A DNA stretch of 64,000 nt. Origin: Citrus sinensis. Its lineage: Eukaryota; Streptophyta; Magnoliopsida; Sapindales; Rutaceae. The notes beneath the pieces were generated by a model, which was not told the origin of the DNA, ran no database searches, and saw only the letters and a list, made by a program, of their open reading frames with translations. The position numbers and the translations under genes were made by a program. The stretch is taken from assembly GCF_022201045.2 (NCBI RefSeq), contig NC_068559.1, positions 29,558,501-29,622,500 of the forward strand. The letters are read 5' to 3'. Shown here piece by piece: positions 31,601 through 64,000 of this stretch. Every line of letters begins with the position of its first letter. Position 1 is the stretch's first letter.

Positions 31601-31929
31601 ATCTTGTTATGGTGCCCCTCAATTACAGTTCTTGTTCCAATCAGAGGAGTTCATTAGATTTGTTGTCAACTGCAGTTCACGACCTTGGGAAGGTATAAGA
31701 TTAAATCCTACTTTGTAATCTTCCATTCTATTTGATGCCTTTTGGAAAGTCCTTTTGATAATAAAAAAAGACTATTTGATGCCGAATTCTTAGTTTCTAT
31801 GCTCTTGATGCTTTCAGGAAAGCTTTGTGAAACAAGAATGCTGCTTTTCTGGCTGCCGCATATGCTGTAGAAGTAGCATCTGCTGGATAACTTCGTCAGT
31901 TGCTTGCAGTATGCACCTTGTGTTCCTCT

Positions 31930-33497
31930 GAATTTTGGTTTGTCTTAGGTAGCGTTTGTTTTTTTGTCTGAAATCTAAATGGGTCTAAATTTTTTTAAAG
32001 TCTGAATAGGTCTGAATACGAAAATCTAAATGACATGTTTGTTTTTTTTTTTTTAATATATGAATATATGTGACATCTTGTTTGTTTTTACAATAAAAAA
32101 CATCTTAAACTTGGTTATTTGACATTTATGTCCTTATAAATTAAAACAAAAAAAGAGGTTTAGATTTTATAGTTTAGGAAATAAGTTATTTTACAGAGAT
32201 ATTTTTGGAATATAATATTTACTTGTCATTCAGACATTTTTTCATTCAGATAAAAGTCACAAAAAATTACTTTTTCTATTCAAATGTAAAAGTCTAAAAA
32301 TCATACATAAGTTCCAAAAAAACAAACAAGTAAATTTTAGAAAATGTCTAAAATTAATAAAATTTCAGACTTAAGACATTTAACAAATAATCTTTTAGTT
32401 GCCGCACTATATATATATATGATGAATTTTTACTTATCCTTTTTCATTTCTCTTAGACCTGGACATAAAATGGTTTTTACTAAACATTAAGAACCATCTA
32501 CCAAAATTCTCATCTCATACAAACAACAATTGGATCTTCAAATGATTTCCAGTTTAGGAGACTTCTTTCCTTCAATGGCCATACTTAGTAATGACAACAT
32601 GTAACTGTACATTCTTCAAATGATGTTCAAGCTTCATACTTTTGCCACAAATGCAATGTTAGCACTCGAAATTGGATTTATATTGCATGATTCAAGTTGA
32701 AGTGAGAAGTAGCATCATTGTCTTCGCTTTTGCTAACTTTTCTCCCTTAAGTAAAATCCAACTAAAAGAGTTTGCTGCACTGTCCCATAATATCTAGAAT
32801 GCCTAAGTGCAAATACCAATTAAGCCTGAATGTGGACTCAGGGTGAAAACATCATGTAACTCTGTGTAAGGGAATAATGATATACATATGCTTTCTGGAA
32901 ATTGAGAAGTGAAAATAGTAGCTTAGAATTACCAAGTCAATGCTTTGGCATCGAAGCTCAATCTTTATTTGAAAAAAGAAAAGGCACCAATACGATTCAT
33001 GGACCTTATTTGGAATCAATGAATAAGTTTGGAAGCAGTAATTTTTAATTATATAAGAGTAAAATGTTTTAGAACATTTTGGATTTCTAGATCACAAAAA
33101 TTAAGTTGAAGTTCTGTGGCTCGTTGAATTCCTGACACCGACATTGTAATTTTAAAGTAATTGGAATTCATGGTCCTCTGACACTGCATGGTAATAGAAC
33201 TAGCTTCACAACTAGAAAATTAGCAGCTTCAGTAGATGCTGTGAGGGTGCAATAAATAGTAGAAAAAGGTGACCAGCTAGCTTTTCGAAGGCTTGATGCA
33301 TTCACTTAGGACTATGGATGCTTCAGTAAAATTATTTTTCCTAGAACATAATTTTGGTTTTGGTTGTTGTCTATAGTTTATGGCAAGTTAACCTAGTTAT
33401 CTGATGAGGAAGACCAAAGCTTTTGTGTACTTTTTGTTGGAGGTGCACCACTTAAGTTTTTAAACTGAAAATTCAGTAACTTGATGCAGCATTGTTT
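31930..33497. other. Non-coding insert in the DUF936 pseudogene
   Basis: About 31947-32395 has the look of a decayed hAT-type MITE: GGTAGCGTTTGTTTTTTTG at one side and AAAACAAACAAG inside the other, with repeated AAATCTAAATG / TTCAGAC words. The rest is unassigned. Confidence 0.3.
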
Positions 33498-35204: not shown

Positions 35205-36522
35205 ATATCTACTATGAAAAGGAGGTATATACTTGGAATGAAACCAAGTATATACTGTTTAATGAACCTTCCAAGTGCTTCAAGAACCATTGATTAGAAA
35301 CCAAGAGAAGTTTATTTGCTAAAATTGCTGCCTCCTTTAATCCACCTCCCTTAGTCTTTTCTTTTCTTTCAGGATTCGTATTTTTTGTGCTTGGAAGATA
35401 TGGCTTTGTTGGAGTGGGAGATGGCACCTGCAAGCAACTCTAATCTGATAAGAAGCTACCATAGTATCTAGAACTTGCCTTGCGTGAATGATTCCCAGAA
35501 TTTATTTCCTTTGCATTGGCTTTTTAAGCAGCTTAAAAGGGTGAATAAATGGTTGGATGACCTAGTTGGGGGTGGAATAGAGGCTGATGCAAGGATAGAT
35601 GAGATGAGAAAGAAGCTGTACAAGTTCGTACTTGAGCATGTTGATTCCACTGTCATTGCTGGTCAGTAGATGATATAATGAATTAAGTATCAGTGACTAA
35701 TTAAAGTTTAATGCATTCAGTATCGGTGACTAATTTCAGATTCGAGCAGCCATTGCCCATTGGCAGTTTAGGTTTTGATTGCAAAGAGGGTTCTGTTGGC
35801 CAGGAGTTATTTAGGCACGGCATGTACTCTTTTTACTGAGTATTTACTAATTTAGGAAAGTTGACCTGGAGGAAATTGCATTTTGTAACCCTTTTATCCT
35901 TCAAAGTCATGAAATGGATTATGTACAGTTATTTTGGTTATCTGGTGGCTTCATGTAATTAGGATTAGCTATAATTTTGGAATGCCTTTTTGTTTCATTA
36001 CTCGGGCAGCTAGCTAGCTAGCTAGCTATCCGCAGGAGTGCATAACCACCTATTGATGCATAAAATGTATGAAGAATGGTCTTAGTGTTCTCGATCTGAA
36101 AGATCTGAATAGCTGATAATAATTTTTAGGTTAGTCCCTTAAAACGGAATATTCCTCAACACCGAAGCATTAAGCTTGTAATAGAAATTGCTGTGAGGTT
36201 GGAGTTAGGTAATTAGTAGTGCACTGAGGGAAAATTAATGAAGGTTCCAATTCCAATGTTATTCTTCTTCTACACGTTCTTCGGTTAAGATTTAAGATAG
36301 GGAATTAGGGGGTGTCTTTTTCTGGATCTCAAGTTTCTTGCATGATTGTAAACAACTTGTGCACTAGTATATCCTTTCACTTTACATGAGTAAAATATTA
36401 AAAAAAGAAGAAGAAATATAAATAAAAAGGAAAATAAAAGAGTTAATTGTTCCCTCCCAATACTTAGTATATACTTGAAATGAAATTAATTAGTTCATAA
36501 ATATTCCCTTGCAATGGAAAAT

Positions 36523-38581
36523 TCAGTTGGTTAACAAGTAACTTGAAGAAGTTGACGGTTCCTGTCCAGAGGACTGAGGCTGAGGAGATAAATTCGTAGA
36601 TCTCAGACTCTGCGGTGGACCTGATGATGATGATGATGTCTTCTCAAAAGAAACTGGCTCTGCAGTAGAACTGGACTTTGATGATGCTTTCATTCCTTTG
36701 CACGACTTCATGTGTTTTTGCAATTTTTCTGGTTTGAATAGTTTGCCGCATTGCCTGCCACATTGTGAATTTAGGGTAGTGGGAGAGTAGGTAGGGATAA
36801 TATATATCTGCTAAGCAGTTGGACTAATAGTTAGCTAGTTACGAGCTACCTAAAACACATACATACATATGTAAGGTGATAATGATCTTACGAGCAAGTG
36901 GGTCCACCAACTGGCTTGTAATTGTAATGGTATGCAGAAGAAACAGGTTTTGGGCCAGCGAATCCGTCCTTGTTTTTATTATTGGAAGCAGTCGTACTCG
37001 TTGTGCCATCAAAGCTCTTCCTGAATGCAGCAGGCCAAATTGAATAATAATAATAATATTAAGACAGATGATGGTATATACATGGTGAGAGAGTACCTAC
37101 CGAGCTCCGTATAGTGGATGATGTTGATTATTCCAAGTAGAAGTAGTAGTGACAAAAAATCTAGCAGAGCCACCAAGTTGATGTTGATCTCCCCGACAAA
37201 TTAAATTCAAAGCCCCATCGTTATCTCCAGTAGTATCGAGGACTGCTGGAGGAAGGTTGACAGACTTGCTTAAACGAGTAGTATTAGGTTTGCTTTCAAC
37301 TACTGCTGCAGGAGGCCGGTTAACGTTGACTACAACACCATTCTTAGTATCAACGGCCCCACATTTCATCAAATTGCGCAAAATGTTAGAAGCTCCATTT
37401 GAGCAACTCTTGCTCTTTGCAAACTGCGCTGACGATGACGATGACGATAGTTTTTTATTGGATTTGGACGACGATGACGATAGTTTTTTATTGGATTTGG
37501 ACGACGATGAAGACGAAGATGAAGGCAATGTACCCTTTTTCTGAATTATGCTGTCTTTATTATTATTATAATAATAATTATTGTTCTCAGCTGTCTTTTT
37601 GCTATTTTTCTTATTCAACAAACCCGAATAAAATGAAGGGGAGGACGAGGTTGAGGAATAGGAATAGGAATAATCTAATAACTTAGACTTTTGTGTTAAC
37701 GATGCTGGCACTAATTTGTTGAGATTAATATGATTAATATTATAATTTGTGTCTTCTCTTTCATGCTTCATACTCATAGTATCGTCCGTCAAAGTTGACC
37801 TCTCTAAACAGGCCGAGCCATATGAATATGCATAGACAGGTGATGATTCTTGCTCTTGGACGTGTGACTGTGAGCGTGGGGTTTCCATTTTTGGATCTTC
37901 AAGTTGCTGAATTTCTTCTTCTTTGACTTCTGTGCGTGAGCAGGCTGGTTGCTTTTGCTGTTCAGCTGTTATTGCCTCTTCATCATTTCTTAACATGCCA
38001 ACTTTATTTTTTTCATCATCGTATAAATTACAGGTATCTGTATTATTAATTCATCGTTAATATATTATCTGTTCAGTTTATTATATATTTTATATGTTCT
38101 CCTATTAATTTATAGGATTCCCCTAAATTACGATTAACGTAACTTATGCCACACACAGCAACAGTTGCGGGTTCCACCAATGTGCTACTGTTGCTGTGTG
38201 TGGTGTAAGTTATATTAAACGTAACTTAGCATCCGCCTATTTTATATATATATATATATATAGTAGTTTTCTGGTTAGGGATTTTAAAGTGCGGGAAAGT
38301 CCGGGAAAGCTTTAAAACCACACGGCTTTAAAGGCTTACATTTTTAAGCCTTTAAAATCATGTGGTTTTAAAGGTTTCCCGCACTTTAAAATTCCTGATT
38401 GGAACATTTATATATATATATATATATATATATAGTAGTTTTCTGGTCAGGGAATTTAAAGTGCGGGAAAGTCTAAGAAAGCTAACCGCACGGTTTTAAA
38501 GGCTTACAGTTTTAAACCTTTAAAACCATGCGGTTTTAAAGGTTTCCCGTACTTTCCTGCACTTTAAAATTTCTGACTGGA

Positions 38582-38612
<31 letters not shown>

Positions 38613-39346
38613 AAATACTGCAATTACGCAGGCAGGTGCACGTACATACCAAAAGTAGTGGTACAGCAGGGAAGGTGAAGACTTTCGGATCCTTTGAGAA
38701 CGTATTCGTTGTCAGAGATTGGTGTAATGAGATCATCATTCAGTAAGTCTTGCCAAACGTATCCACTTTTGTATCTCCTGCAATCGCGCGCGCCAAGCCA
38801 CCATTAATTAGTTACAACACAAATTAATACCCACCAAAAAAAAAAAAACCCAAAAAAAGTTAATTAATTGCTTATATTTTAGCTACCTAAGTTAGCTGAA
38901 CTAATTAATTGGCAATCGATATTGATATATACAAACAACATACAATGAATGAAATTTACCTCTTGTAGGACCAAGAGAAAGCTTCAGGCATATCTTTACC
39001 TCGCACTTCTGCTAGCCATCTTTTAACATCTTAAGCGTTTGAAATTAAAAAAAAAAATCAGCAACCGTCGCTCGCTCATCAAAAACAGAATAAATCTCAT
39101 ATGTAAGCAAGTAATAACTAACAAAAAAGAAAGAGAAATAATTAACAAATATATAATAATTAATTAATACGTATTACCTCGCAGATAAACCCCGTTTCGA
39201 CTGAGATGATGAACGCGAATGAGATGGGGATGATCAACTTGACCCAGACGACTGAGGAAGTAAACGATGTGAATTCTCCTCACTTCTCCACCGTTATTTA
39301 TATTATTGTTAATAACTTTGCCTCCACCTCCTCCTCCTCCTTCCAT
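36523..39346 (-). CDS. SOK: SOSEKI (DUF966) polarity protein, six exons
   Basis: Exons (minus strand) 39346-39178, 39029-38960, 38777-38650, 38037-37101, 37020-36892 and 36754-36523 join in phase to 554 residues. The N-terminus, after MEGGGGGGG, holds the DIX-like SOSEKI domain: [20 protein letters not shown], then [34 protein letters not shown] and [11 protein letters not shown] long disordered Ser/Lys/Asn-rich middle follows, and then a C-terminal Cys motif [20 protein letters not shown] and a Ser-rich end. SOSEKI proteins polymerise through the DIX-like domain at cell edges and mark organ axes, recruiting partners such as ANGUSTIFOLIA. I prefer the ATG at 39346 to one 63 bp upstream because the Gly-rich start is followed directly by the domain. 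Exon 4 carries a small in-frame duplication ([11 protein letters not shown] twice). Intron 3 holds two fold-back MITEs. Confidence 0.92.
38130..38224. repeat. Inverted repeat in SOK intron 3
   Basis: GTAACTTATGCCACACACAG with CAACAG is mirrored by CTGTTGCTGTGTGTGGTG and TAAGTTA about 25 bp further on. Likely a small fold-back element. Confidence 0.7.
38262..38581. mobile_element. Two tandem fold-back MITEs between (TA)n tracts in SOK intron 3
   Basis: Copies at about 38262-38407 and 38435-38581 both start TAGTAGTTTTCTGGT(T/C)AGGG and end with an inverted counterpart (AAAATTCCTGATTGGAA and AAAATTTCTGACTGGAA). Each contains TTTAAAGTGCGGGAAA and its complement as inner arms plus a central ACGG(C/T)TTTAAAGGCTTACA palindrome. 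Each copy is flanked by (TA)n microsatellites (38243-38261, 38408-38434, 38582-38612). A diverged relative sits at 8655-8807 beside (AC)n. Confidence 0.8.
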
Positions 39347-50974: not shown

Positions 50975-53900
50975 CGTCTTTTTAGGTGTCATCGCCCGCG
51001 GGAGGGTGCGTTCAGAAGCCAATTTCAAATTTTCACGGCCGCCCGAGGGCGGCCCATGAAAAATGCCCAAAACCGGTGTGTTATTACTTTTGGCCTGAGT
51101 CATGAGGAGAGAAGTTGGGTTTCTCTAAAAAAGTAACACCGTTCTTCTCCCCTGGGACATTCCTTGGGCCGCCAGAGGTACTCCAAGGCGTTGCCCCACC
51201 GTCATCTGGGAGGCTCTCATAGTTTTTGATGAGATTATTCCAAAAATAGGCCGAAAAAATTGGTTTTTTTTTTTTTTGCAGAATTTTGGAATAAATTCCG
51301 CCAAAACTACTTTGGGGCTCCAAATGGACTCCAGACAGCTTTTTTGGCCTATTTTTGGAATAATGTCCTTAAAAACTATGAGAGCCTCCTAGGCGATGGT
51401 GGGGCAGGCCTTGGAGCACCCGCAGCGGCCCAAGAAATGTCCCAAGGGAGAAGAACGAGGTTGCTTTTGGAGAAAAACCCAAATTCTCTCCTTATGACCC
51501 AGGCCAAAGGCAATTGCACATCGGTTTTGGGTTGTTTTCATGGGCCGCCCTGGGGCTACAATGGAAATTTGAAACTAGCTTCTGAACGCACCTTCCCACG
51601 GGCAGCCACAGGGAGGCCAATGGAAAAGGCGCAAGACTGATGTACTTTAGCCTGGGTGCCCAAGGAGAGAAGTTGGGTTTCTCTACAAAATCTACCCCGT
51701 TCTTCTTTACAGGACATTCCATCAGCCACTGTGGGTGCTTCAATGCCTTTCTACATCGCCGTCTAGGAGGCTCTCATAGTTTTTGATGAGATTATTCCAA
51801 AAATAGACTGAAAATGCTAGTTTTTTTGGGTTAAATTTTTGAATAAATTCTGCCAAAACCACTCCGGGTCTCCAAACGGACTCCCACCTTTTTCATCGCG
51901 TTGCCTGCGAGAAGGTACCTTCAGAATATCGTTCCAAAATTCCAGGGCAGCCCCATAGAGGCCCATGAAAAAGGCCCAAAACCGGTGTGCTATAGCTTTT
52001 GGCTTGGGGGCTTGAGGAGAGAAATTTGGTTTCTTTAAAAAAGCAATCTTGTTCTTCTCCCTTGGGACTTTTTTTTGGGATGCTGGGGGTGCTCCAAGGC
52101 CTTGCCCCACCGTCGTCTGGGAGGCTCTTATAGTATTTAGGGAGTTTATTACAAAAATAAGCCAAAAAAGCCATTTTTTTGGCTGAATTTTAGAATAAAT
52201 TCTGTCAAAACCACTTTGGGGTTCCAAACAGACTCTCATATTTTCCTTGGGCATTACACTGCCTACTAAAAGGTGCATACAAAAGCTCATTAAAAAATTC
52301 TAGGGTAGCCACAAGGAGGCCCATGAAAAAGACCTAAAACTGGTGCGCTATAACCTTCGGCTTAGGTCCCAAAGAGAGAAGTTAGGTTTCTCTACAAAAG
52401 TAACCCCGTTCTTTTCCCCTGGGATGTTCCTTGCGCTGCCAAGGGTGCTTCAAGGCCTTGCCCCACCGCTGTTTGGAGGCTCCCACAGTTTTTGGGGAGT
52501 TAATTAAAAAAATAAGTAGAAAAAGCATGTTTTTTGTTGAACTGTAGAGTAAACTTCGCCCAGACCAATTCGGGGCTCCAAACGAACTCCTTTTTTTTTC
52601 TAGTGGCATCGTACCGTTCCTAGGAAGGTGCATGTAGAAGCGTTCCAAAATTATATGGAGGCTGATGAAAAAATCTTAAAACCAGTGTGCTATAGCCTTT
52701 GGCCTAGGGGGTGAGGGGAGAAGTTGGGTTCTCCCTCATGTGAACCCCGTTCTTTTATGTTAAGATGTTTCTTAGGTCGTTGAGGGTGCTTTAAAGACTA
52801 GCCGCACTGCCATTTAGGAGGCTCCTATAGTTGTTGAGGAGTTTGTTCCAAAAACAGGCCGAAAACGCTCCAAACGGACTCTCATATTTTCCTAAGGTAT
52901 CACGCCACCCACGAGAAGATGCGTGTAGGGCTCCGTTCCAAAATTCCAAGGCAACCCTACAAGGGCTGAAGGGCATGTGGTAAAAGGCCAAAAACCGGTG
53001 TGCTATAGCTTTTCGCCTGGAGGGGTGAGGAGAGAAGTTGGGTTCCCCCAATGTGAACCCCGTTATTCTCTTTTGAGATGTTCCTTGTGCCACCGGGGCT
53101 GCTGTAAGGCACTGCTCCACTGCTGTGAGAGGGGTCCCATAGTTGTTGGGGAGTTTCTTTCAAAAATAGGCTGAAAAAGCCCGTTTTCAGTTAAACCTTG
53201 GAGTGAAGTCCGCCTAAACCCCTTTAGGGCTCCAAACGGACTCCTGTATTTTGTTGGGGCAACAAACCGCCCGCAGAAAGATGCGTACAGAGGCTCGTTC
53301 TAAAATTCTAGGGCGGCTCTAGGGGGCATGTGGAAAAAGAACCAGAATAGGTGTCCTAGAGCCTTTGGCCCGAGGGAGAGGAGAGAAGTTGGGTTCCTAC
53401 TCATGTGAACCTCGTTATTCTCTACTGGAATATTCCTTGGGCTGCCAGGGATGTTGCAAGGCCTTGCCCCACCACCGTCTAGGCGGCTCCTATAGTTGTT
53501 GGGGAGTTTGTTCAAAAATAGGATGAAAAAGTCCGTTTTCGGTTGAACCTTGGAGTGAACTACGCCTAGACCCCTCTGGGGCACAAAATAGACTCTCTTA
53601 TTTTTCGGGAACATTATGCTGCCCGCAGGAAGGTGCGTACAGAGTATCGTTAAAAAATTCCAGAGCGGCCCTGGGGGGCGTGTGGAAAAATGCCAAAAAC
53701 CAGTGTACTCTAGCCCTTGGCTTGGGGGGTGAGGAGAGAAGTTGTGTTCCCCTCATATGAACCCTATTATTCTCCGTTGGGATATTCCTTGGGCCATTAG
53801 GGGTGCTGGAAGGCCCTGTCCCATTTGTGTCTGGGGGGCTTGCGTCGTTGTTGGGGAGTTTGTTCCAAAAGCAGGCTGAAAATTCCCTTTTCTATTGAAC

Positions 53901-55975
53901 GTTGGAGTGAACTCCGCCCAGACCCCTCCGGGGCTACAAATGGACTCCCGTCTTTTATAGAGTCATTGCACCACCCGTGGAAAGGTCTGTGCAGAGGTCC
54001 ATTCAAAATTCTAGGGCGGCCTCAGGGGGCATGTCGAAAAAGGCCTAAAACCTGTGTGCTATAGCCATTGGCCTGAGGGGTGAGGAAAGAAGTTGAGTCG
54101 CCCCTATGTGTACCCCATTCTTTTCTGCTGGGATGTTCCTTGGGCTACTGGGGGTACTGCACAGCACTGCCCCACCGCCGTCTGGGAGCTCCCATAGTTG
54201 TTGGGGAGTTTGTTCTAAAAACAAGTCGAAAAAGTCCGTTTTTGGTTGAACCTTGGAGTGAACTTCGCCAAGACCCCTCTGGGGCTCCAAACGAACTCCC
54301 ATCTTTTCCAGGAGAATTGCCCAATCTGCGGGAAGGTACGTGCAAAGGCTCGTTCCAAAATTCCAGGGCGGCCCCTGGGGGCATGCTAAAAAAAGGCACA
54401 AAACCGGTGTGCTAGAGCCTTTGGCCTTGAGGGGAGGAGAGAAGTTGGGTTCCCCCCCAAGTGAACCTCGTTCTTCTATATTAAGATGTTCTTTAGGCTG
54501 CCGGTGTTACTGCAAGGCCCGGCCCCACCATCGTCTGGAGGGCTCCCATAGTTGTTAGGGAGTTTGTTGAAAAAACAGGTCGAAAAAGCCCGTTATCAGT
54601 TTAACCCTGGAATGAACTCCGCCCAGACCCCTCCGGGGCTCCAAATGGACTCCCGTGTTTTCGAAGGCTATTACACTGACCAGAAGTAGGTGCGTACAGA
54701 GGCCTGTTCCAAAATTCCAGGGCGGCCCTAGGGGGCATTTCGAAAAAGGCCCAAAACGAGTGTGCTATAGCTTTTGGCATAGGGGGTGAGGAGAGAAGTT
54801 CGGTTCCCCCCAAATGAACACTGTTTTTCTCTGCTGGGACTTTCCTTAGGTCGTTAGGGGTGCTACACGGCCTTACCCACTGCCGTCTGGGGGCTCCCCA
54901 AGTTGTTAGGGAGTTTGTTCAAAAAAATAGTTGAAAAAGAGCGTTTTTAATAGAATCTAGGAGTGGACTATGCCAAGACCCCTTTGGGGCTCCAAATAGA
55001 CACCCATCACTTCCATGGGCATTGCACTGCCTGCGGGAAGGTGCGTGTAGAGTCCTGCTTGAAAATTCCACGGTAACCCCATGGGGCATGTTGAAAATGC
55101 CCAAAATCGGTGTGCTAGAGCCTTTGGCCTTCTAGGGGGAAGAGAAAAGTTGGGTTTCCCTTCATGTGAACCCCGTTATTTTCCACTGGGATGTTCCTTG
55201 GGCTACCGGAGGTGCTGCAAGGCCTTGCCCACCGCCGTCTGTGGGGCTCCCATAGTTGTTAGCGAGTTTGTTCAAAAAACATGTCAAAAAAGCATGTTTT
55301 CGATGGAACTCTGGAGTGAACTCCGCCTTGACCCCTTTGAGGCTCCAAATGGACTCCCATATTTTCCGGGGGCATCATACCAACCGTAAGTATGTGCTTG
55401 TAGAGGCCCGTTCCAAATTTTCAAGGTGGCCCCTGGGGGCATTTCGAAAAAGGCCCAAAACTAGTGTGCTATAGCCTTTGGCCTGCGGGGGTAAGGAGAG
55501 AAGTTGAATTCCCCAACATGTGAATCATGTTCTTCTCCACTAGGACATTCCTTGAACCAACAAGGATGTTGTACAACCCTGGCCCATCGTCGTCTGGGGG
55601 GCTCCCATAGTTGTTGGAGATTTTGTTATAAAAATAGGTCGAAAGTCATGTTTTCATTTGAACCTTGGAGTGAACTCCGCCCAGACCCCCCCCAAAACGG
55701 ACTCCTGTCTTTTTCGAGGGCATTATGCTACCCATGGGAAGGTACGTGCAGAGGCCCGTTCGAAAATTCCAGGGCAACCTTAGGGGGGCATGTGGAAAAA
55801 TGCCTGAAACTAGTGTACTATAGCCTTTGGCCTGAGGGGGTTTATGAACCCCGTTCTTCTCTACTGAGCCTTTCCTTGGACCACCAAGGGTGCTGCAAGG
55901 CCTTACTCGACCGCCATCTGGGAGGCTTCCATAGTTGTTTGGGAGTTTGTTAAAAAAACAAGCCAAAAAAGCCTA
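50975..55975 (+). repeat. Subtelomeric satellite array, about 350-bp unit, about 14 units
   Basis: The landmark GGGGCTCCAAA(C/T)GGACTC recurs near 51313, 51864, 52211, 52570, 52870, 53226, 53578, 53932, 54283, 54636, 54988, 55345 and 55693, so spacing from 53226 on is about 350-357 bp. Other fixed blocks in each unit are AAAACCGGTGTGCTATAGCC, GAGGAGAGAAGTTGGGTT, GGATGTTCCTTGGGC and CTCCCATAGTTGTTGGGGAG. Units differ at many sites; one (52570-52870) is shortened and one is inverted. Open frames inside are repeats of the unit, not genes. The array passes directly into TTTAGGG repeats at 55976. Confidence 0.92.
51335..51605 (-). repeat. Inverted satellite unit
   Basis: Within this segment the satellite reads on the other strand: GGCCTATTTTTGGAATAATG, AACTATGAGAGCCTCC and GATGGTGGGGCAGGCCTTGG are reverse complements of unit blocks at about 51180-51260. 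Forward orientation resumes near 51605 in mid-unit. Confidence 0.85.
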
Positions 55976-56133
55976 TTTAGGGTTTAGAGTTTAGGGTTTA
56001 GGGTTTTGGGTTCAGGGTTTTAGAGTTTAGGATTTTAGGGTTTAGGGTTTAGAGTTTAGGGTTTAGGGTTTTGGGTTCAGGGTTTTAGAGTTTAGGATTT
56101 TAGGGTTTAGGGTTTAGAGTTTTGGGTTTAGGG
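55976..56133 (+). repeat. Degenerate TTTAGGG telomere-type repeats, block 1
   Basis: TTTAGGG with variants TTTAGAG, TTTTGGG, TTCAGGG and TTTAGGA. A higher-order unit of about 70 bp (beginning TTTAGAGTTTAGGGTTTAGG) occurs twice. The G-rich strand reads left to right. Confidence 0.93.
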
Positions 56134-56286
56134 TTTTTTTTTGTTGAAACCACCAAAGAAAATGTGGGGGCTAGGCGGGATCCCTACCTGTCAAATAAAT
56201 CCGAAAAAGAAACAAATACAAAGGAGGGGGACATGAGCCAAAACCTCCAAGAGAAAATGAAATACATAATGAACCAGGAAAAAAAC

Positions 56287-57170
56287 CTATCGTCTCACAT
56301 GAGGGATCGACTGAGCGTCTGTGCGGAGAATACCCGATAAGCCTCTAGGCAGCTCCTGAAGAGAAAAGAAACGTCGACTAGACCGATGAGAGCACGCCCA
56401 GTTGGTCAGGAAGTCTGTTGCAAAAGTAGCCTCGCGAAGGACATGTCTCACGTGAACGGAAGCTGAGGAAATCAGGCGACACGCCCGACGCAGAGGATAA
56501 GAATAATCCCATCGAACTGGACCTTGAGAGTGAACCCATGACACTATCATAGCCGAATCCGACTCTACCTCAAGAACCGAATGGCCAAGCTGAGTGGCTA
56601 CCTCCAAACCCTCGCAAACTGCCATGAGCTCAACATATAAGATGGGCTTGTGGCCTAAGAAAAAATCAAATGCAGCTAAAGCTACGCCGTGGTGATCCCG
56701 GAGGATGCCCCCAGAAGCAGCCATCCCAGGATTGCCCCTCGAGCAACCATCCATAGTCAGCTTGACCACTCCAGGAGACGGTCTCGTCCAGGCAATTAAT
56801 TGAATCGGCCTCTTAGGGATAACCAAAACTCTCAATCCCTCCATAATCCGGGAATCCAAGACTCCCCTCAGTTGGGGAGGCTTGAAGCCAAAAGCAGAAA
56901 GCAGAACCAGCAAGTTTAAGGTCAGATCCAACCTGAAAGATAACTGCATCAGTAGAAAAAGACTGCGAGTGGAACCGGTAAGCATTTCGGGCCTTTCAAA
57001 CTTGCCACAAAATGAAGCAAGGCAGAAGGACCCGAAGATGATTCCGAGAATGGGCACGATGTCTCTGGATAAGAAGCAGCGCACGGGGAGACATGAAACT
57101 AAGCTCTGGCATCCCCAATATCCGCTGATAGTGGACCCAAATATGACAGGTATATGGCTGATAATTTCCT
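56287..57170 (-). pseudogene. LINE ORF2 C-terminus with RNase H domain
   Basis: Shows the plant LINE RNase H-like fold: GVVKLTMDGCSRGNPGMAAS (first Asp), GGILRDHHGVALAAF, YVELMAVCEGLEVA (Glu), EVESDSAMIVSWV (second Asp) and a C-terminal VRHVLREATFATDFL block. Upstream is a zf-RVT-like stretch. The frame is open but has lost its RT and endonuclease, and the upstream end is joined to a gypsy primer-site region at about 57176. Confidence 0.85.
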
Positions 57171-57178
57171 TTAGAAAA

Positions 57179-58318
57179 CTCCCCGGCAACGGCGCCAAAA
57201 ACTTGACACGACTCAAAAGTGTATTACTCTCAAGTATAAGAGTGTCTAGTTATAATATAACCCGGTGAGACCGGGGTCGAACCACATGGAGTTTTAAATC
57301 TAGTAAAACTAAGAAAATTAATTGCGGGGCAAAGAAATTATTTGAAATTGATTTAAAAATAAGCTAAGGTTTAGGATCCACTCTCTGTATTCAAACTATA
57401 ATTTTAATACTCTCTCATTTATATTTTGCCTCACTTTTACTAATTAATTATTATATCATTTAATTCTATGTGTGTGGATAAATATAGAATAAAGTACCTA
57501 ATGTGCCACATTATATTAATGTGTCGACATTATGTCAAAATACCATAAAATCCAGTGAGATTTATAAATTAACATGACTTAAAAATAATTAAAAAAGAAT
57601 TAAATAAACTTAAAAACTCATTTGAGAAAATAATAATAATTAATAGTTTAAAACATTGAGTTTCACCCTTCACCTCAGCTTAATAAAATTAGCTACTCAT
57701 ATTGAAAGAAAACACAACACTCTTTTTATTTGATAAACTTTTTGAAATATATTACAAAGAAAATTGATACAAACGGAAATAAGAAAAGAAAAGAAACAAA
57801 GAAAGAAAGAAAATCTTCAGTCTCGGCTTCAGCTCTCAATTTAGCTCTCTTGGCTTTTGAAAAATCAGCTCTAACTTCTTCCTCTCTCGCCTGCATCCCC
57901 TTGCCTTTTATAGGCAAGAGAATCGTCTTCTTTTCTTTTATTTTATTAATATTAATATTTTATTTTATTTTTATATATTATATATATATATTGAATTGTG
58001 TGATGGTCAGGAGGCGGGATGGCCTCCTGACCATCACCAACATGTTTTTGTTCTTATTTTATTTTATTTATTATTTAGTATTACATCTCTTCAGTTTTTG
58101 TTCCAGTAGTTCTTCTTTGTTCCCGCTTTCAATTCCAATTCCATCTTTATTCCTGAAAATATTTATAAGATAAAAATTAACACAAATTACGAATTAATTT
58201 AACATAAAATATATTTGGGGAGTATTAAAATAATTTATAAATAATGAACGCATTAATCGACATAATAAATGAAAAACTAATAATTGTATCATTATTAAAT
58301 GTACACTTTTTAGTGTCA
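57179..58318 (-). mobile_element. Gypsy LTR plus primer site nested in LINE copy 1
   Basis: The LTR spans 57204-58318 with ends TGACACTAAAAAGTG ... CACTTTTGAGTCGTGTCA (minus strand). It contains a TATA block (CCTATAAAAGGCAAGGGG near 57900-57920) and a GACCGGGGTCGAACCAC motif. Just inside is the primer site TGGCGCCGTTGCCGGGG (about 57180-57196), typical of Athila/Tat elements. The rest of the element and its second LTR are absent; a deletion joins the primer region to LINE ORF2. Insertion was into LINE ORF1. Confidence 0.85.
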
Positions 58319-58558
58319 ATCACCAGCTATGACGTTGATTTCTTCCTCTGTGAAAAATATGGCAGGTTCGCCTTTATGGGTGGAAGATTGCCTGAAGGCG
58401 ATGGCCGGATCAGAGCTTTGGGACCCGGCAGTGACATCCACAAAAGATTTGCGGGGTTGAACAGTAGGCGGTTTTGACGCCATTTGAGTAAATGACGGGA
58501 GTGGTGGGAACTCCAATGAAGTAGTCGGATGGCCCTCGGCTATAGCCGGAGAAGCCAT
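58319..58558 (-). pseudogene. LINE ORF1 N-terminus, cut by the gypsy LTR
   Basis: MASPAIAEGHPTTSLEFPPL then KSFVDVTAGSQS and GEPAIFFTEEEINVIAGD. This is the region that precedes the DUF4283 domain in plant LINE ORF1 proteins. It stops at the LTR junction. Confidence 0.75.
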
Positions 58559-58900
58559 TCGGGCCGAGTTGCGCAAAGGGAGCCCTCGGAAGACTAATGC
58601 AAAAATGCACCAAAAATTCAATTATGTGAATAGTAACCTGAAAATACTGTAGTCGAAATGGTTACTGTAATGATCAAAGATACAGTAGCAAACGATTACT
58701 GTAGCGATCAAAGGTATTGTAGCAATGAAGAATAGGAACTGTAGCAATTAAGAACAACACTGTAGCAGGAATAGTGAACTACAAATTCAAAAGAGCGTAG
58801 AGGCTTTAAATCACCACGAAATCTCTCACGGAAGGTAGGGAAACATAGATCGGTGAGAGGGGAACAATTTGATGGGGGTGGTGAGAGATCACTCGCCGGA

Positions 58901-58970
58901 AACCCTAAACCCTAAACCCTAAACCCCTAAACCCTAAAAACCCTAAACCCTAAACCCCCTAAACCCTAAA
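58901..58970 (-). repeat. CCCTAAA repeats (reverse orientation) at the 5' end of LINE copy 1
   Basis: About ten units of CCCTAAA on the + strand directly after the LINE 5' end; in the LINE's sense orientation this is (TTTAGGG)n in front of the element. The orientation flips at CTAAACGGTTTAGG (58966-58979). Confidence 0.92.
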
Positions 58971-59234
58971 CGGTTTAGGGTTTAAGGTTTAAGAGGTTTA
59001 AGGTTTTAGGGGTTTAGGGTTTAGTGTTTTAGGGTTTAAGGGTTTTAAGGTTTAGGGTTTATGATTTTTAGTGTTTTGGGTTTGGGGTTTGAGGTTTTGG
59101 GTTTTAAGGTTTTAGGGTTTTAGGGTTTAGGGTTTTAGGGTTTTAGGATTTTGGATTTTAGGGTTTAGGGTTTAGGGTTTAGGGTTTATGGTTAAGAGTT
59201 AAGGGTTAAGGGTTTAGGGTTTTAGGGTTTAAGG
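58971..59234 (+). repeat. Degenerate TTTAGGG repeats, block 2
   Basis: Variant telomere-type repeats (TTTAGGG, TTTTAGGG, TTTAAGG, TTTGGGG) in G-strand orientation between the flip point and the poly(T) of the SPIRAL1 retrocopy. Confidence 0.92.
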
Positions 59235-60043
59235 TTTTTTATTTTTTTTTTACGAAATGAAAAATCTCATTTGAGCATCTCTTATGGGAACCGAGAGAAT
59301 CATACTGTATGGCTCCGCTCTCGTATAAAAAAAACTATGGAAATGAAATGCAGGATTAATCATCTTTTGTTACATTGCCAATGGGATTGTGAAGCTGTTC
59401 ACACATGCCGAATTTTAAGTTTCAAAGTCTAAACTGTTCAGCATAACCCAACACATCCTCCAAGATAAAAGTATATTACACGATACAAATAAAATTATCT
59501 CTCATTATCTAACAGATTCAGAATTGTTTTGCCTCAACTTCAAAGGTCGCTAAAGCATCCGTCAGCAAAGGTTCCGACCTCAACCTAGGGCCTCATTTCT
59601 CATTACCGCCAAACAGGTAATCCAAGGAAGATCCTCCACCAGGGGCTGCATGCACCTTAGTTATAGGACGATCAGTGAGGAAATTGCCACAGTTCTGCCC
59701 ATCAGCGCGAAAATAGTTGTTGACATTGTTCCCTGGAACTCCAGCTGGAATCTGCTTATTGACTTCTGCAGGTGGTGCTGCTGCTGGTGCAGCTGTGGTA
59801 GCATTTTGAGAAGCTCCAGTGTTTGTAGGCTCAACTTGGCTCCGAGGAACTTCAGTAGTTTTCAGAGTGGGTTTTGCTAGAGAAGCCTCTCCGGTTCCAA
59901 AAAGGTACCCCAAAGAACTTTATCCTCCACCGCTGCTGACTCCACGACCCATAATCTCTCTCTTGAACTTTTATCTAACAAATCTTAGATCCCGATTCCT
60001 GCCTTGCGTGAGTATTGTGTGCTGCTTGGATAAGATCTGAAGC
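59235..60043 (-). pseudogene. SP1L: Processed SPIRAL1-like retrocopy with poly(A) joined to telomere repeat
   Basis: Minus strand: a 5'UTR starting at 60043, right against GGTTTAGGG; ATG at 59952-59950; 119 codons to a stop at 59593; then a 3'UTR of about 340 bp and an A-rich tail (poly(T) with one A at 59235-59251) joined to CCTTAAACCC. The protein shows MGRGVSSGGG, then a TAA instead of Gln at codon 11, SSLGYLFGTGEA, NNYFRADGQNCGNFLTDRP and KVHAAPGGGSSLDYLFGG, the two conserved ends of SPR1-like microtubule plus-end proteins. No introns, both UTRs and a tail make it an mRNA copy, made by LINE machinery. The premature stop near the N-terminus makes it a pseudogene, though the rest of the frame is open, so it is young. 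Confidence 0.92.
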
Positions 60044-60059
60044 GGTTTAGGGTTTAGGG
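60044..60059 (+). repeat. Two telomere units between two retro-insertions
   Basis: Only GGTTTAGGGTTTAGGG separates the 5' end of the SPIRAL1 retrocopy from the poly(T) of LINE copy 2. Confidence 0.93.
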
Positions 60060-61125
60060 TTTTTTTTATTAAAAACCACTAGTGCGGTAGGGGGTTAGGC
60101 AAGGACCCTTACCTGTAATATAAATCAGTCGATGAAAAAAAATACAAAGGAGGGGGACATAAACTAAAACCTCCTAGAAAAAGAGCAGAACAAGAAATGA
60201 GACAAATAAGGCAAAGCCTAATAACTGAATACAACAAAAATAAAACTAACTCAGCCTGACCGAAAATCACCTGCGGTATTTGCGGCCAGTGAGTAATCTG
60301 AATCCCTTCCTCGTGTGTCGCTGAGTAACACTATAGTCAGGTGCGTGATCTGGTCTCCGGTTGTCCTCAGGAGCGGACAAGAAATAACCATCATGCTTCG
60401 ATAGCTCATCAGAATTGCGATCATCCAAACTCTGGCTCTCGGAATGCTGGTGGGTCCCATGATACCCAAAATGCTGATCCTCTGCATTGCTGATCTCCAC
60501 ATAATAAGGAACATCGGTACAGTGGGTGTTAAATCCCACAGCCGTCATGTCGAGGTTATCCGAAAAAGATCAGAAATTTGTAGGGATATGATGGTCAGCG
60601 ATCTCTCCATTATCGCAGGGCAAACTAGCTCCTAAATCCGAAGCCCTAAAATCCTGAGAAACAGGGGTCAGGTCTGGAGCGGTTGCGGAGTCGGGGACAT
60701 CTGCCCCGACGGGGAATATCACAGTGATCGGAGACCCAGAATCCATGATCTGAATAGCCAAACTCGAGTGCTCTGGGGTCGGGTTTGGAGCACGAGGAGA
60801 AGAGCCTCCTGGAGGAAGAGGAGGAGGGGCCTCTCTTTCCTTACTCATGTGTGGGTTGGCCTGAGAAGCCCTATTGGACTGTTGGGGTCGAAGGCCAGGG
60901 TTAGCCACATAGCACGTCTCAGCGGCATGGCCAAGGTGCTTGTAGGAAGCACAATAAAGTGAGATTCTCTCATACACGACATTCTGCCAAAATCTGAAAT
61001 CGCCCACACGGATCCGAATCCGAGGTAACAGAAGATGGGTGACATCATGCTCTACTAAAACTCTGGCTACAGATTGTCGAGATAAAGACGTAGTGGCTTG
61101 GTCAATTCAGAGCGGCTTACCAATG
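60060..61125 (-). mobile_element. LINE copy 2: 5'-truncated, ORF1 only, poly(A) joined to telomere repeat
   Basis: Poly(T) at 60060-60067 follows TTTAGGG. Reading on the minus strand from 61125, the copy begins inside the DUF4283 domain, continues through ORF1 to its stop at 60267, and then has a 3'UTR of about 200 bp with the family block GGAGGGGGACATAAACT. There is no ORF2 between ORF1 and the 3'UTR. TTTAGGG repeats resume at 61126. Confidence 0.9.
60267..61121 (-). pseudogene. LINE ORF1 C-terminal part (copy 2), one stop
   Basis: Contains the end of DUF4283, a knuckle YCASYKHLGHAAETC (second Cys replaced by Tyr; copy 3 has CAACKHVGH), a Pro/Ser-rich linker and the basic end TRKGFRLLTGRKYRR. 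A TGA at 60570-60572 interrupts one continuous frame, and further upstream the frame is damaged. ORF1 proteins are nucleic-acid chaperones of LINE particles. Confidence 0.85.
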
Positions 61126-62437
61126 GTTTAGGGTTTAGGGATTTAGGATTTAGGGTTTAGGGTATTTAGGGTTTATGATTTAGGGTGTTTAGGGTTTAGG
61201 GTTTAGGTTTTTTAGGGTTTAGGGTTTAGGGGTTAGGGGCTTACGGGTTTAGGGTGTAGGGTTTAGGGTTTTTGCGGTTTTTAGGGTTTTTACGGTTTGG
61301 GGTTTGGGGTTTAGGGTTTAGGGTTAGGGTTTATGGGTTTTAGGATTTTAGGGTTTAGAGTTTCGGGTTCAGGATTTAGGGTTTAGGGTTTTTACGGTTT
61401 AGGATTTAGGGTGTTTAGGGTTTAGGGTTTAGGTTTTTTAGGGTTTAGGGTTTAGGGGTTAGGGGCTTACGGGTTTAGGGTGTAGGGTTTAGGGTTTTTG
61501 CGGTTTTTAGGGTTTTTACGGTTTGGGGTTTGGGGTTTAGGGTTTAGAGTTTAGGGTTCAGGATTTTAGTGTTTAGGGTTTAGGGTTTTTTTAGGGTTTT
61601 TAGGGTTTAGGGTTTTTAGGGTTTAGGGTTTAGGGTTTTAGGGTTTATGGTTTAGGGTTTTAGGGTTTAGGGTTTTGGATTTAGGGTTTTAGGGTTTAGG
61701 GTTTAGGGTTTAGGTTTTAGGGTTTGGGGTTTGGGGTTTGGGGTTTGGGGTTTGGGGTTTGGGGTTTGGGGTTTGGGGTTTGGGGTTTGGGGTTTAGGGG
61801 TTTAGGGTTTGGGGTTTAGGGTTTGGGGTTTTGGGGTTTAGGGGTTTGGGGGTTGGGGGTTTAGGGTTAGGGGTTTAGGGTTTTTAGGATTTAGGGTTTT
61901 TTAGGGTTTAGGGTTTAGGTTTTAGGGTTTTAGGGTTTAGGGTTTAGGGTTTAGGGTTTAGGGTTTTTTAGGGTTTAGGGTTTTTTAGGGTTTAGGGTTT
62001 AGGGTTTAGGGTTTAGGGTTTAGGGGGTTTGGGGTTTTTGGGGTTTAGGGTTTTTAGGGTTTAGGGTTTAGGGTTTAGGGTTTAGGGTTTAGGGTTTAGG
62101 GGTTTAGGGGTTTAGGGTTTAGGGTTTAGGGTTTAGGGTTTAGGGTTTAGGGTTTAAGGGTTTAGGGTTTAAGGGTTTAGGGTTTAGGGTTTTGGGTTTA
62201 GGGTTTAAGGGTTTTGGGTTTAGGGTTTAGGGTTTAGGGTTTAGGGTTTAGGGTTTAGGGTTTAGGGTTTAGGGTTTAGGGTTTTTAGGGTTTAGGGTTT
62301 AGGGTTTAGGGTTTAGGGTTTAGGGTTTAGGGTTTAGGGTTTTTAGGGTTTTAGGGTTTTTAGGGTTTTAGGGTTTTAGGGTTTTGGGTTTAGGGTTTTG
62401 GGTTTAGGGTTTAGGGTTTAGGGTTTAGGGTTTTGGG
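61126..62437 (+). repeat. Telomere-type repeat tract, block 3 (1.3 kb)
   Basis: Mostly TTTAGGG with many variants. A segment of about 145 bp (with GGGGTTAGGGGCTTACGGG and GGTGTAGGG) at about 61180-61325 is repeated at about 61407-61552. A block of about ten TTTGGGG units lies at 61722-61795. The distal part (about 62040-62340) is nearly pure TTTAGGG, with runs of up to about ten perfect units. Confidence 0.93.
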
Positions 62438-64000
62438 TTTTTTTTTTTATTGAAAACCACCCGGAGGTGGGGGGTTAGGCGGGACCCCTACCAGTAGATA
62501 AAACAAAAAACAAATTACAAATACTGGAGGGGGACATGAACCAAACCTCCAGAGAAAAATGAAAACAACAAACAGACAAAAAGAAAAGTACAATGAAAAT
62601 ATAAAATCAATATCGGCGGCGTCTTCTGTTCATCTTGAAGCCCTTCCGAGGAGTGACTTCAGTAAAACCCTCCGTAGAAGTGACAATTCTTTGCCCACCC
62701 AATTTCGCGATGACTGTCTCTTCCATAATCTCTGAGTCTGAAATGCCTATACGGACATCAACAGGAACGTCATCACTGGAGTTGCTGTAATCCTCGATCC
62801 GATGGCTCGTTCCAATTCTATCTTTTGAAGTGGTGGGTGCAGGAGATACCTCAGGGACATCAGTGGATTCGGTATTGAGAGTGCATATCGGCGCAGCATC
62901 ATATGGAGCATATGGGAGTGTCAAAACTTCTGTAGAAGTAATGTCTGGAAATGTATCACAAGAACTGACCGTCTGCCAAGATGAGCTGCGGTAAAATCGC
63001 CCTTGATGGCGATAAGGATCCCAAGCAGGCGTCGCACGATAAATGAGGTCACCGGCTGTCGTTCCCACACGAGCGGCATGATCACCACTCAACGGCAGAA
63101 GAGCTGCAAGAGGTGTAGGAGTAATGGCCGTAGAATCAGCACTAGTAACAGCAGGAACGAGGTCACTGCACATGGGCTCAGGAGAGGCACACACAACTGA
63201 AGGCAGAGTGACTGTGCTCGGGGGAGGGATCTCAGCAACAGCAGGAAGATCAGCAATGATAACTGGTGTTGCTTCAGTAGTAGTAACTTCATTTGGTGCT
63301 TCACTGGTTTCTGCACCGGTGGTAGGAACATTTTGAATAATCGGAGTAACAACTGCTGCCGCTTCTGTTGTTGCTGCATTCTGGTTTCTGTTATCGGCTT
63401 TCGGAACGTACCGAGTCTTCATAGGTTCCTTTGACTTGTTACCCTCTCCATCCGGAACAACATTTTGCCGAACTGGGCCGGAACGGTCTGATTTCCGCAA
63501 CTCGGGTTTGTTGATGTAGCAGGTGTCATCAGAGTGGCCCACATGCTTGCAGGCAGCACAATACCGAGGCACTTTTTCGAAGATGATATACTGCCAAAAC
63601 CCAGTGTCTTTTTCCCCAATCCATAACCTCTTCAATAAAGGCCTAGAAATGTCATACTCAATGAGGACTCTGGCAACAGTAGGCCTACTGACCGAGGCGG
63701 TGGCATGATCGATCCGAAGAGGTTTCCCGATGGCAGCAGCAATGGAATACAGAGCCTCTTTGCATCTCATGTAGTGGACCGGTAAAAACGGCAAGGAGAC
63801 CCATATCGGAACAATCGGCGACTCTTCCGAACAATGAAAAGTTGTGGACCATTTGAAGACCCTCATAGCTCGGCCATCAATAAACCAGGACTGGCGGAGC
63901 CAGATTCTCGTATAGTCCTCTTCCAGGTGCAGTTGGATAAGGATGTGTCGAGGATCCAATAATGAAATTTCAACATTTCCTTTCAAGCCAAGAGCCACAA
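62438..64000 (-). mobile_element. LINE copy 3: ORF1 only at its 3' end, poly(A) joined to telomere repeat; runs off the window
   Basis: Poly(T) (62438-62448) follows TTTTGGG. The 3'UTR (to 62606) carries GGAGGGGGACATGAACC, like copies 1 and 2, and ORF1 begins directly upstream of it in sense terms. There is no room for ORF2 between ORF1 and the 3' end. The 5' part lies beyond base 64000. Confidence 0.9.
62607..64000 (-). CDS. LINE ORF1 protein (DUF4283 plus zinc knuckle), open, 5' end outside the window
   Basis: At least 463 codons without a stop. The N-terminal part seen is the DUF4283 domain (VEISLLDPRHILIQL, WLRQSWFIDGRAMRVFKW, PIVPIWVSLPFLPVHYM, IGKPLRIDHATASVSRPTVA), followed by an intact knuckle CAACKHVGHSDDTC, a long Thr/Pro/Ala-rich low-complexity region and a basic end KGFKMNRRRRRY. 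It binds nucleic acid in plant L1 LINEs. Unlike copies 1 and 2 the frame is undamaged, so this is the youngest copy. No ORF2 follows. Whether the real start is present cannot be seen here. Confidence 0.88.
   Translation of the reverse strand, partial: VALGLKGNVEISLLDPRHILIQLHLEEDYTRIWLRQSWFIDGRAMRVFKWSTTFHCSEESPIVPIWVSLPFLPVHYMRCKEALYSIAAAIGKPLRIDHATASVSRPTVARVLIEYDISRPLLKRLWIGEKDTGFWQYIIFEKVPRYCAACKHVGHSDDTCYINKPELRKSDRSGPVRQNVVPDGEGNKSKEPMKTRYVPKADNRNQNAATTEAAAVVTPIIQNVPTTGAETSEAPNEVTTTEATPVIIADLPAVAEIPPPSTVTLPSVVCASPEPMCSDLVPAVTSADSTAITPTPLAALLPLSGDHAARVGTTAGDLIYRATPAWDPYRHQGRFYRSSSWQTVSSCDTFPDITSTEVLTLPYAPYDAAPICTLNTESTDVPEVSPAPTTSKDRIGTSHRIEDYSNSSDDVPVDVRIGISDSEIMEETVIAKLGGQRIVTSTEGFTEVTPRKGFKMNRRRRRY

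Follow-up and report, generated by a model that had tools for sequence, protein, structure and literature searches.

The distal part of the 64,000-nucleotide stretch of Citrus sinensis DNA analyzed here (the window; G000:C4:29558501-29622500, the final 64 kb of contig C4) carries long interspersed nuclear elements (LINEs) and a copied host mRNA that are joined by their poly(A) to telomere repeats of the TTTAGGG type. When we searched the genome (299.7 Mb, 11 contigs, 9 of them chromosome-sized), we found two related element types at chromosome ends, LINE-A and LINE-B, and established their structure, location, orientation, junctions and the selection acting on them. We consider it probable (about 0.7) that they represent a telomere-targeting plant L1 lineage, which uses target-primed reverse transcription to insert at TTT^AGGG. 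An earlier note on the window had proposed a telomere-targeting LINE system, and this proposal is supported by the position of the close family at chromosome ends and by insertions of different elements.

Telomeric junctions and genomic location

Direct reading of the window confirmed that poly(T) immediately follows TTTAGGG-type repeats at positions 56134, 59235, 60060 and 62438, and the shared orientation described in the earlier note was seen in all four insertions (G-strand and poly(T) both on the plus strand). Altogether, 15 poly(A) junctions were read at contig ends (C4R 4, C6R 1, C5L 8, C3L 2; L and R denote the left and right end of a contig). Twelve of them came from an automatic scan, from which two T-runs inside telomere arrays were dropped, and three were read by eye (window 59235, C5:41484 and C3:11829, the last with a decayed T-run). 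The 3' junction at C2R is hidden in a run of N, and C3:10326-10561 (L034), which has no junction of its own, was dropped. At each of the 15 junctions, G-strand telomere repeats are followed by the T-run and the last base before this run is G. The earlier note had suggested tabulating this base and the orientation against other insertions. Here, we found a telomeric flank in 0 of the 26 interior relatives examined (19 loci, six closer ones and L027); at 4 of the 19 loci the match starts beyond the poly(T) and the preceding 70 bases were judged instead. Fisher's test (14 versus 26) gave 4e-11. The exact junction TTTAGGGTTTAGGG-T8 occurs eight times genome-wide, always less than 40 kb from a contig end, whereas C-strand repeats followed by T8 (CCCTAAACCCT N0-4 T8) have 0 occurrences in the 300 Mb genome. 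Thus, the window junctions are not due to chance.

Searches with the 5' ends of the elements led to the same places. Five of the six LINE-A matches lie less than 30 kb from a contig end (three at C5L, one each at C2R and C7L), and the sole interior match is weak (74%, C6:13.03 Mb). For LINE-B, each of the eight matches is no more than 45 kb away from a contig end (C6R, five at C5L, C3L, C4R). Taken together, 13 of 14 matches are less than 45 kb from contig ends and occupy six of them (C2R, C3L, C4R, C5L, C6R, C7L), while the terminal 45 kb of the 18 arms make up 0.27% of the genome. Because the C5L copies partly belong to an inverted duplication and are not independent, we also counted the six chromosome ends only, and the enrichment remains very strong (0.0027 to the sixth power, or 4e-16). 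The concern that most family members might lie in non-telomeric DNA was not borne out for the close family. Relatives that do occupy ordinary sites are more distant; they share mainly the 3' tail and are mostly 73-80% identical there. The picture obtained with the 3' ends is graded: LINE-A-type copies at ends are 80-100% identical (43 matches listed, 40 of 94 candidates scored). For the LINE-B 3' end, 67 candidates were obtained and 40 of them scored; 11 of these 40, among them the eight highest-ranking matches, are at ends.

Of the 18 arms of the large contigs, eight end in telomere repeats (TTTAGGG tracts; left C3, C5 and C7; right C2, C5, C6, C7 and C9), and in five of these eight LINE-A or LINE-B is the first sequence met inward of the repeats. 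Read toward the tip, C6R consists of about 950 bp of telomere repeats, LINE-B, 101 bp of telomere repeats and the contig end, and C2R of telomere repeats, LINE-A with its N run and 1,151 bp of telomere repeats. From its tip inward, C5L shows 171 bp of telomere repeats, a 5'-truncated LINE-B (781 bp), 1,000 bp of repeats, a full LINE-A, 1,314 bp of repeats and then older, partly inverted copies up to 42 kb. C7L has 76 bp of repeats followed by LINE-A without its 3' end, and C3L about 450 bp followed by a LINE-A fragment. The outermost assembled tract meets the LINE-A 5' end at C2R and C7L and a truncated LINE-B at C5L. The outermost elements at C2R, C5L, C6R and C7L point their 5' side outward, as the earlier note had expected, but some deeper C5L copies are inverted relative to the end. 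Open frames are commoner in outer copies and decay is commoner in inner ones. A simple age gradient with the youngest copies outermost was dropped as a rule, since a TPX2-type copy that lies 33 kb from the C5 end still matches its parent at 98-100% identity. Between 10.5 and 33 kb of C5, LINE-A copies (L082, L083, L073, L072) are inverted and have an identical odd 5' junction at 23586 and 29482, a palindrome-like arrangement.

The remaining tips differ. GC-rich repeat-like sequence was seen by eye at left C1, C2, C4, C8 and C9 and at right C3; left C6 ends in N, right C8 in other sequence, and right C1 and right C4 are cut within LINE sequence. Contig C4 stops exactly at window base 64000, and C1 terminates inside a 69-bp scrap of open reading frame (ORF) 2 of LINE-A. 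The sizes of C1, C4, C10 and C11 are multiples of 2,500, and the LINE-A at C2R holds an N run of 2,500 bases, which may reflect scaffolder cuts. That C4 and C1 end at such multiples, together with this N run, could suggest that LINE contigs were falsely joined to telomere repeats during assembly. However, decayed copies deep in C5L, C3L and C4R display these junctions too, mutated on either side, and the same arrangement recurs at six ends, so that an assembly artefact is barely credible.

LINE-A, LINE-B and copied host mRNAs

Full-length LINE-A (6,950 bp, C5:1955-8904) carries ORF1 and ORF2. ORF2 of the C5 copy is open throughout (1,367 aa), and Pfam identified in it Exo_endo_phos (APE-type endonuclease), RVT_1, zf-RVT and RVT_3 (RNase H); together with DUF4283, which was detected in ORF1 of the C7L copy, these domains match the plant L1-type layout. 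ORF1 spans two frames in the C5 copy and is open over 898 codons at C2R and 937 codons at C7L. The 3' end of the C2R copy is concealed by the 2,500-base N run, and the C7L copy, which lacks its 3' end, passes into GC-rich repeat-like sequence. When solved structures were searched with the reverse transcriptase part of ORF2, human L1 ORF2p was the best match (E 1.5e-47), in a listing that contained no R1 element. The same kind of search with the endonuclease part alone did not yield a meaningful match. A poly(A) 3' end and 5' truncation (for example C5:172-952), both hallmarks of L1 elements, were also found.

LINE-B (full length 2,654 bp, C6:26173953-26176606) has only ORF1 (DUF4283) between a 5' leader and a 3' untranslated region (3'UTR), the latter resembling that of LINE-A (76% over 135 bp). 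The open frame of the C6 copy comprises 580 codons, of which the 566 from the first methionine were used. Since three further copies have the ORF1-only layout (C5:33620-35695, C5:38979-41484 and the interrupted C3:8149-11829; mostly 76-85% identity), LINE-B is a family and not a one-off deletion. To judge from their sequences, LINE-A is autonomous and LINE-B is a related ORF1-only element. In one LINE-B arrangement (C5:36295-38877; L077, L033), the 5' part (36295-38164) is inverted and immediately precedes a 3' end in normal orientation (38573-38877) with poly(A). Twin priming of L1 elements produces 5' inversions, and this arrangement fits such an event.

At the 5' ends, GGGTTTTTTGGTTTGG or a near variant precedes the regular repeats on the G-strand in LINE-A at C5L and C7L and in two LINE-B 5' pieces near C5:10.6 kb; variants were also found at C5:38.9 kb, C5:38.2 kb and C3L, and the copies at C2R and C6R differ from the exact motif. 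We set aside an origin of these degenerate repeats from telomerase errors, since the motif recurs in both LINE-A and LINE-B, and this recurrence suggests that the telomere-like 5' sequence may be a cap carried by the elements. The 5' junctions often begin with GG-TTTAGGG or GG-TTTTAGGG (C6R, C5L:172, window 61125, C3L:454 and, for host-gene copies, window 60046 and C5:11769). A fixed junction phase is not claimed, as the junctions at C5 35729, 41535 and 33620 lack this start.

Three host-gene sequences were copied into telomere repeats, each with poly(T) on the G-strand, and two of them have joined exons. The parent of the window copy (C3:8312459-8314331) consists of three separated pieces, two longer ones with 94-96% and a short one with 91% identity, which are joined in the copy; its protein, which gave no Pfam match, is presumably SPIRAL1-like. 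The copy at C5:11300-11769 is 97% identical over q15-470 to C9:22367285-22367745, but the matched part has no intron and was therefore not counted as spliced; it resembles small acidic protein 1, and its Pfam match was sub-threshold only. The third copy (C5:32120-33412) derives from a TPX2-domain mRNA, the six exons of the parent (C1:20091061-20093179) being 98-100% identical, and is fused on its 5' side near C5:32002 to a piece of LINE-A ORF1 (30756-32002). This chimera (C5:30756-33412) is a probable product of template switching. With three such copies, the machinery apparently accepts other poly(A) RNAs at times.

In the window, the following features were identified (coordinates, strand, feature, basis).

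55976..56136, plus (G-strand): degenerate TTTAGGG tract, target side of the first LINE (tandem-repeat scan, direct reading)
56134..57151, minus: LINE-A-type 3' part with poly(A), 3'UTR and ORF2 C-terminus with RNase H (84% to LINE-A; Pfam RVT_3; 79-81% at the amino acid level to C5L ORF2)
58326..58902, minus: 5' part of LINE-B type with the ORF1 N-terminus, abutting C-strand repeats at its 5' end (80% to LINE-B positions 452-1017)
58903..59234, no strand assigned: telomere repeats in head-to-head arrangement, C-strand over about 70 bp and G-strand over the next 264 bp or so (tandem-repeat scan, LINE comparison)
59235..60046, minus: processed retrocopy of a host mRNA, poly(A) on G-strand repeats (parent in 3 pieces at C3:8312459-8314331, 91-96%)
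60045..60061, plus: 16-bp GGTTTAGGGTTTAGGG separating the 5' end of the mRNA copy from the next poly(T) (direct reading)
60060..61124, minus: LINE-B-like element, decayed and 5'-truncated, in which the zinc-knuckle region of ORF1 continues into the 3'UTR and poly(A) (75% to LINE-B 3' end)
61125..62440, plus: TTTAGGG-type tract of about 1.3 kb (tandem-repeat scan, LINE comparison)
62438..64000, minus: LINE-B, ORF1-only, 5' part lost at the contig end (99.55% to full-length C6:26173953-26176606, 7 mismatches in 1554)
62607..63998, minus: open LINE-B ORF1, 463 aa visible, DUF4283 (ORF list, Pfam; 580 codons in the C6 copy)

These features bear out the earlier count of three LINE copies and one mRNA retrocopy, as the LINE ORFs and domains and the parent gene in separate pieces were found. 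The element at 56134 is a composite of a LINE-A-like 3' part, an unrelated insert (about 57180-58300) and a LINE-B-like 5' part reaching 58902. In the LINEs at 60060 and 62438, the 3'UTR passes straight into ORF1 with no ORF2 between them, and the latter element is incomplete because the contig ends at window base 64000. The zinc knuckle of the 60060..61124 element was called by eye, and a Pfam search gave no match. The insert of the composite element (57180-58300) is AT-rich, starts with CTCCCCGGCAACGGCGCC and might, as a guess, be an element of the long terminal repeat type. The head-to-head meeting of C- and G-strand repeats beside a LINE 5' end (58903-58972) resembles a fusion or fold-back point. 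On its proximal side, the first telomeric tract adjoins a GC-rich tandem satellite (51936-55838, unit about 352-358 bp).

We also considered that untargeted L1 elements hit telomere repeats a few times and that subtelomeric exchange between chromosomes then spread the blocks. The 99.55% identity of the LINE-B copies at C4R and C6R and the inverted duplication in C5L are what such exchange would leave behind. However, identity among the LINE-A copies at C5L, C2R and C7L is 90-97% for the greater part of the element and drops to 72-83% in portions of the 5' region, and their 5' junctions differ. Moreover, the same junction is common to elements of several divergences and truncations and to three unrelated host sequences, and the 5' ends gave a single weak interior match. 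This explanation is highly unlikely, and spread from a single event was rejected for most copies because elements, truncations and 5' junctions differ. The same holds within the window: its insertions are not segmental copies of one event, a possibility raised in the earlier note, because they comprise two LINE types, a host mRNA and different truncations.

Selection and mode of insertion

Between the copies at C5L, C2R and C7L, ORF2 shows nonsynonymous (dN) and synonymous (dS) divergences of 0.019-0.023 and 0.14-0.31 (dN/dS 0.07-0.13). In each of the three pairs the endonuclease has the lower ratio (0.03-0.09) compared with the reverse transcriptase (0.07-0.12). LINE-A ORF1 gave a dN/dS of 0.61. 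For LINE-B ORF1, the ratio was mostly 0.2-0.5 against other LINE-B copies, some of them with stops, and 0.63 for one 80-codon piece. Pairs of LINE-B and LINE-A ORF1 are mostly saturated in dS, and the value of 1.9 for the C4R/C6R LINE-B pair reflects very few changes and is uninformative. The strong constraint on the endonuclease argues that this domain is needed for spread.

In the mechanism we propose, LINE-A would supply the machinery, namely ORF1 and an ORF2 with APE-like endonuclease, reverse transcriptase and RNase H. The endonuclease would nick the G-strand of the telomere repeats, presumably at TTT^AGGG, and the freed ...GGGTTT-3' end would pair with the poly(A) tail and prime reverse transcription. 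The element would thereby land with its poly(A) inward, while its 5' end would face the tip of the chromosome, with telomere repeats beyond. LINE-B and occasional host mRNAs would be inserted in trans by the same machinery, and the 5' cap (GGGTTTTTTGGTTTGG, G-strand) may help to rejoin or re-seed telomere repeats. Repeated insertion would build stacks of elements separated by telomere tracts, with decay and rearrangement further in.

L1-type endonucleases prefer to cut between a T-run and A. Since TTT^A exists on the G-strand only, the one-way orientation is expected from any such endonuclease, and we rejected orientation as proof of priming by chromosome ends, as the C-strand offers no T-run before A. 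End-primed addition was nevertheless weighed as an alternative. Here, no nick would be needed, and the 3' G-overhang of a short or damaged telomere would itself prime the copying of poly(A) RNA. Telomerase would then re-cap the product, and the pattern would be a side effect of telomere erosion, comparable to HeT-A or endonuclease-independent L1. This would agree with inter-element tracts of just 16-37 bp in 4 of 15 cases, with element 5' ends abutting the outermost assembled repeats at C2R, C5L, C6R and C7L, with telomere-like sequence at retained 5' ends and with the insertion of host mRNAs. On the other hand, the short tracts may come from later contraction, the 26 interior relatives examined have similar poly(A) tails but sit elsewhere, and strong purifying selection acts on the endonuclease (dN/dS 0.03-0.09), which favours endonuclease-dependent insertion. 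The TPX2 copy is nearly identical to its parent and was therefore inserted recently, 33 kb from the C5 end. Taken plainly, it favours insertion into inner tracts over end-priming, but given the rearrangements in C5L this copy may have been at the tip originally, and our weighting of the two explanations was left unchanged. On balance, we regard end-primed addition as unlikely.

Several observations weigh against targeted insertion by a telomeric lineage. Target-site duplications, sought at the junctions inspected, are undecidable within repeats. Tracts of only 16, 16, 23 and 37 bp between stacked elements (4 of 15 cases) fit insertion at very short telomeres too. Among the three LINE-A copies with 5' ends at outer tracts, the 3' junction is visible at C5L only, and not all copies are independent, as an inverted duplication includes some of those at C5L. 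There is no LINE within the last 2 kb of C5R, C7R and C9R (three of the eight telomere-bearing ends). Among the 40 of 94 candidates that were scored, the best interior LINE-A 3' relatives reach 75-77% over 280-373 bp; some have 80% over a conserved tail of about 115 bp and one 50-bp piece has 94%, as compared with 80% for the oldest telomeric copies. A tree was built from 11 of 27 copies tried, those covering enough of the ORF2 C-terminus (4 telomeric, 7 interior). It supports the split between telomeric and interior copies only modestly (86.8/78), and midpoint rooting places the interior copy L036 as sister on the telomeric side, so that the choice of root decides whether the telomeric side forms a clade. 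On these sequences such a clade is likely, but not firm.

A more far-reaching reading, which is possible but rather doubtful, combines these elements into a two-component telomeric system in a telomerase-type plant. Autonomous LINE-A and Gag-only LINE-B with telomere-like 5' caps would repeatedly add kilobases to chromosome ends and contribute to end maintenance. They would also deliver spliced host mRNAs, including a LINE-mRNA chimera, and thus act as a retrogene nursery.

Relation to known telomeric elements and meaning

In Drosophila, HeT-A, TART and TAHRE likewise have poly(A) inward and the 5' end outward, and a Gag-only element stands beside one bearing a reverse transcriptase. They belong to the Jockey clade and occur without telomerase repeats, whereas telomerase-type repeats flank the citrus copies and TTTAGGG tracts were found at 8 of 18 contig ends, unlike a telomere that consists of elements without short repeats. 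The telomere-like terminus of MoTeR elements is their 5' end. This terminus reads TTCGGG(TTTGGG)n, and MoTeR1 and MoTeR2 of Magnaporthe oryzae resemble the citrus pair in being an autonomous and a reverse transcriptase-less element with common end sequences, in having the 5' end nearest the chromosome end and in forming head-to-tail stacks with short telomere tracts (PMC7367193). MoTeR has a restriction-like endonuclease, whereas that of LINE-A is of the APE type, and MoTeR2 carries unrelated sequence, whereas LINE-B retains ORF1. Zepp belongs to an L1-like clade. It is named as a telomere-associated retroelement of Viridiplantae (Chlorella vulgaris; PMC10088271), but its host is a green alga and not a land plant, and we liken it by description, not by kinship. 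FoTeRs of Fusarium oxysporum are chromosome-end LINEs with telomere repeats at both ends and undecidable target-site duplications, as here, but they are fungal and MoTeR-like (PMC12857005). TRAS and SART of Bombyx mori are LINEs in telomere repeats with fixed orientation, and the TT^AGG nick ascribed to the TRAS endonuclease (PMC7265360) would match the TTT^AGGG site proposed here. TRAS and SART belong to the R1 clade and live in an insect with telomerase activity undetectable by the telomeric repeat amplification protocol, whereas in the citrus system, which is plant-borne, an RNase H-bearing element of the L1 type is accompanied by an ORF1-only partner and by copies of host mRNAs.

The accessible part of one survey lists telomeric retroelements from insects, Giardia, Chlorella, blast fungus, lizard and rotifers and does not name land plants (PMC10088271). 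Telomeric LINEs are not described in the available text of the telomere-to-telomere sweet orange paper (PMC11590112) and a Citrus repeat paper (PMC6377768), nor are land-plant telomeric LINEs in that of reviews on interstitial repeats (PMC8621592) and retrotransposons at chromosome ends (PMC4700185). Telomere-colonising LINEs of a land plant were not found in this limited literature, which does not establish their absence from print. The kind of system is known (TRAS/SART, MoTeR, Zepp), while its occurrence in a land plant and its two-component layout seem, as far as the literature searched goes, to be new.

If the land-plant case is true, plant L1 elements, which are usually thought to be dispersed, evolved a telomere niche beside telomerase-type repeats. 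This would provide a plant system for asking whether retrotransposons help to keep telomeres intact or harm them, by what path an APE endonuclease acquired its preference for TTTAGGG and what allows a Gag-only partner to survive. Telomere tracts would become landing sites for retrogenes, and some interstitial telomere repeats would be explained as buried insertion sites.

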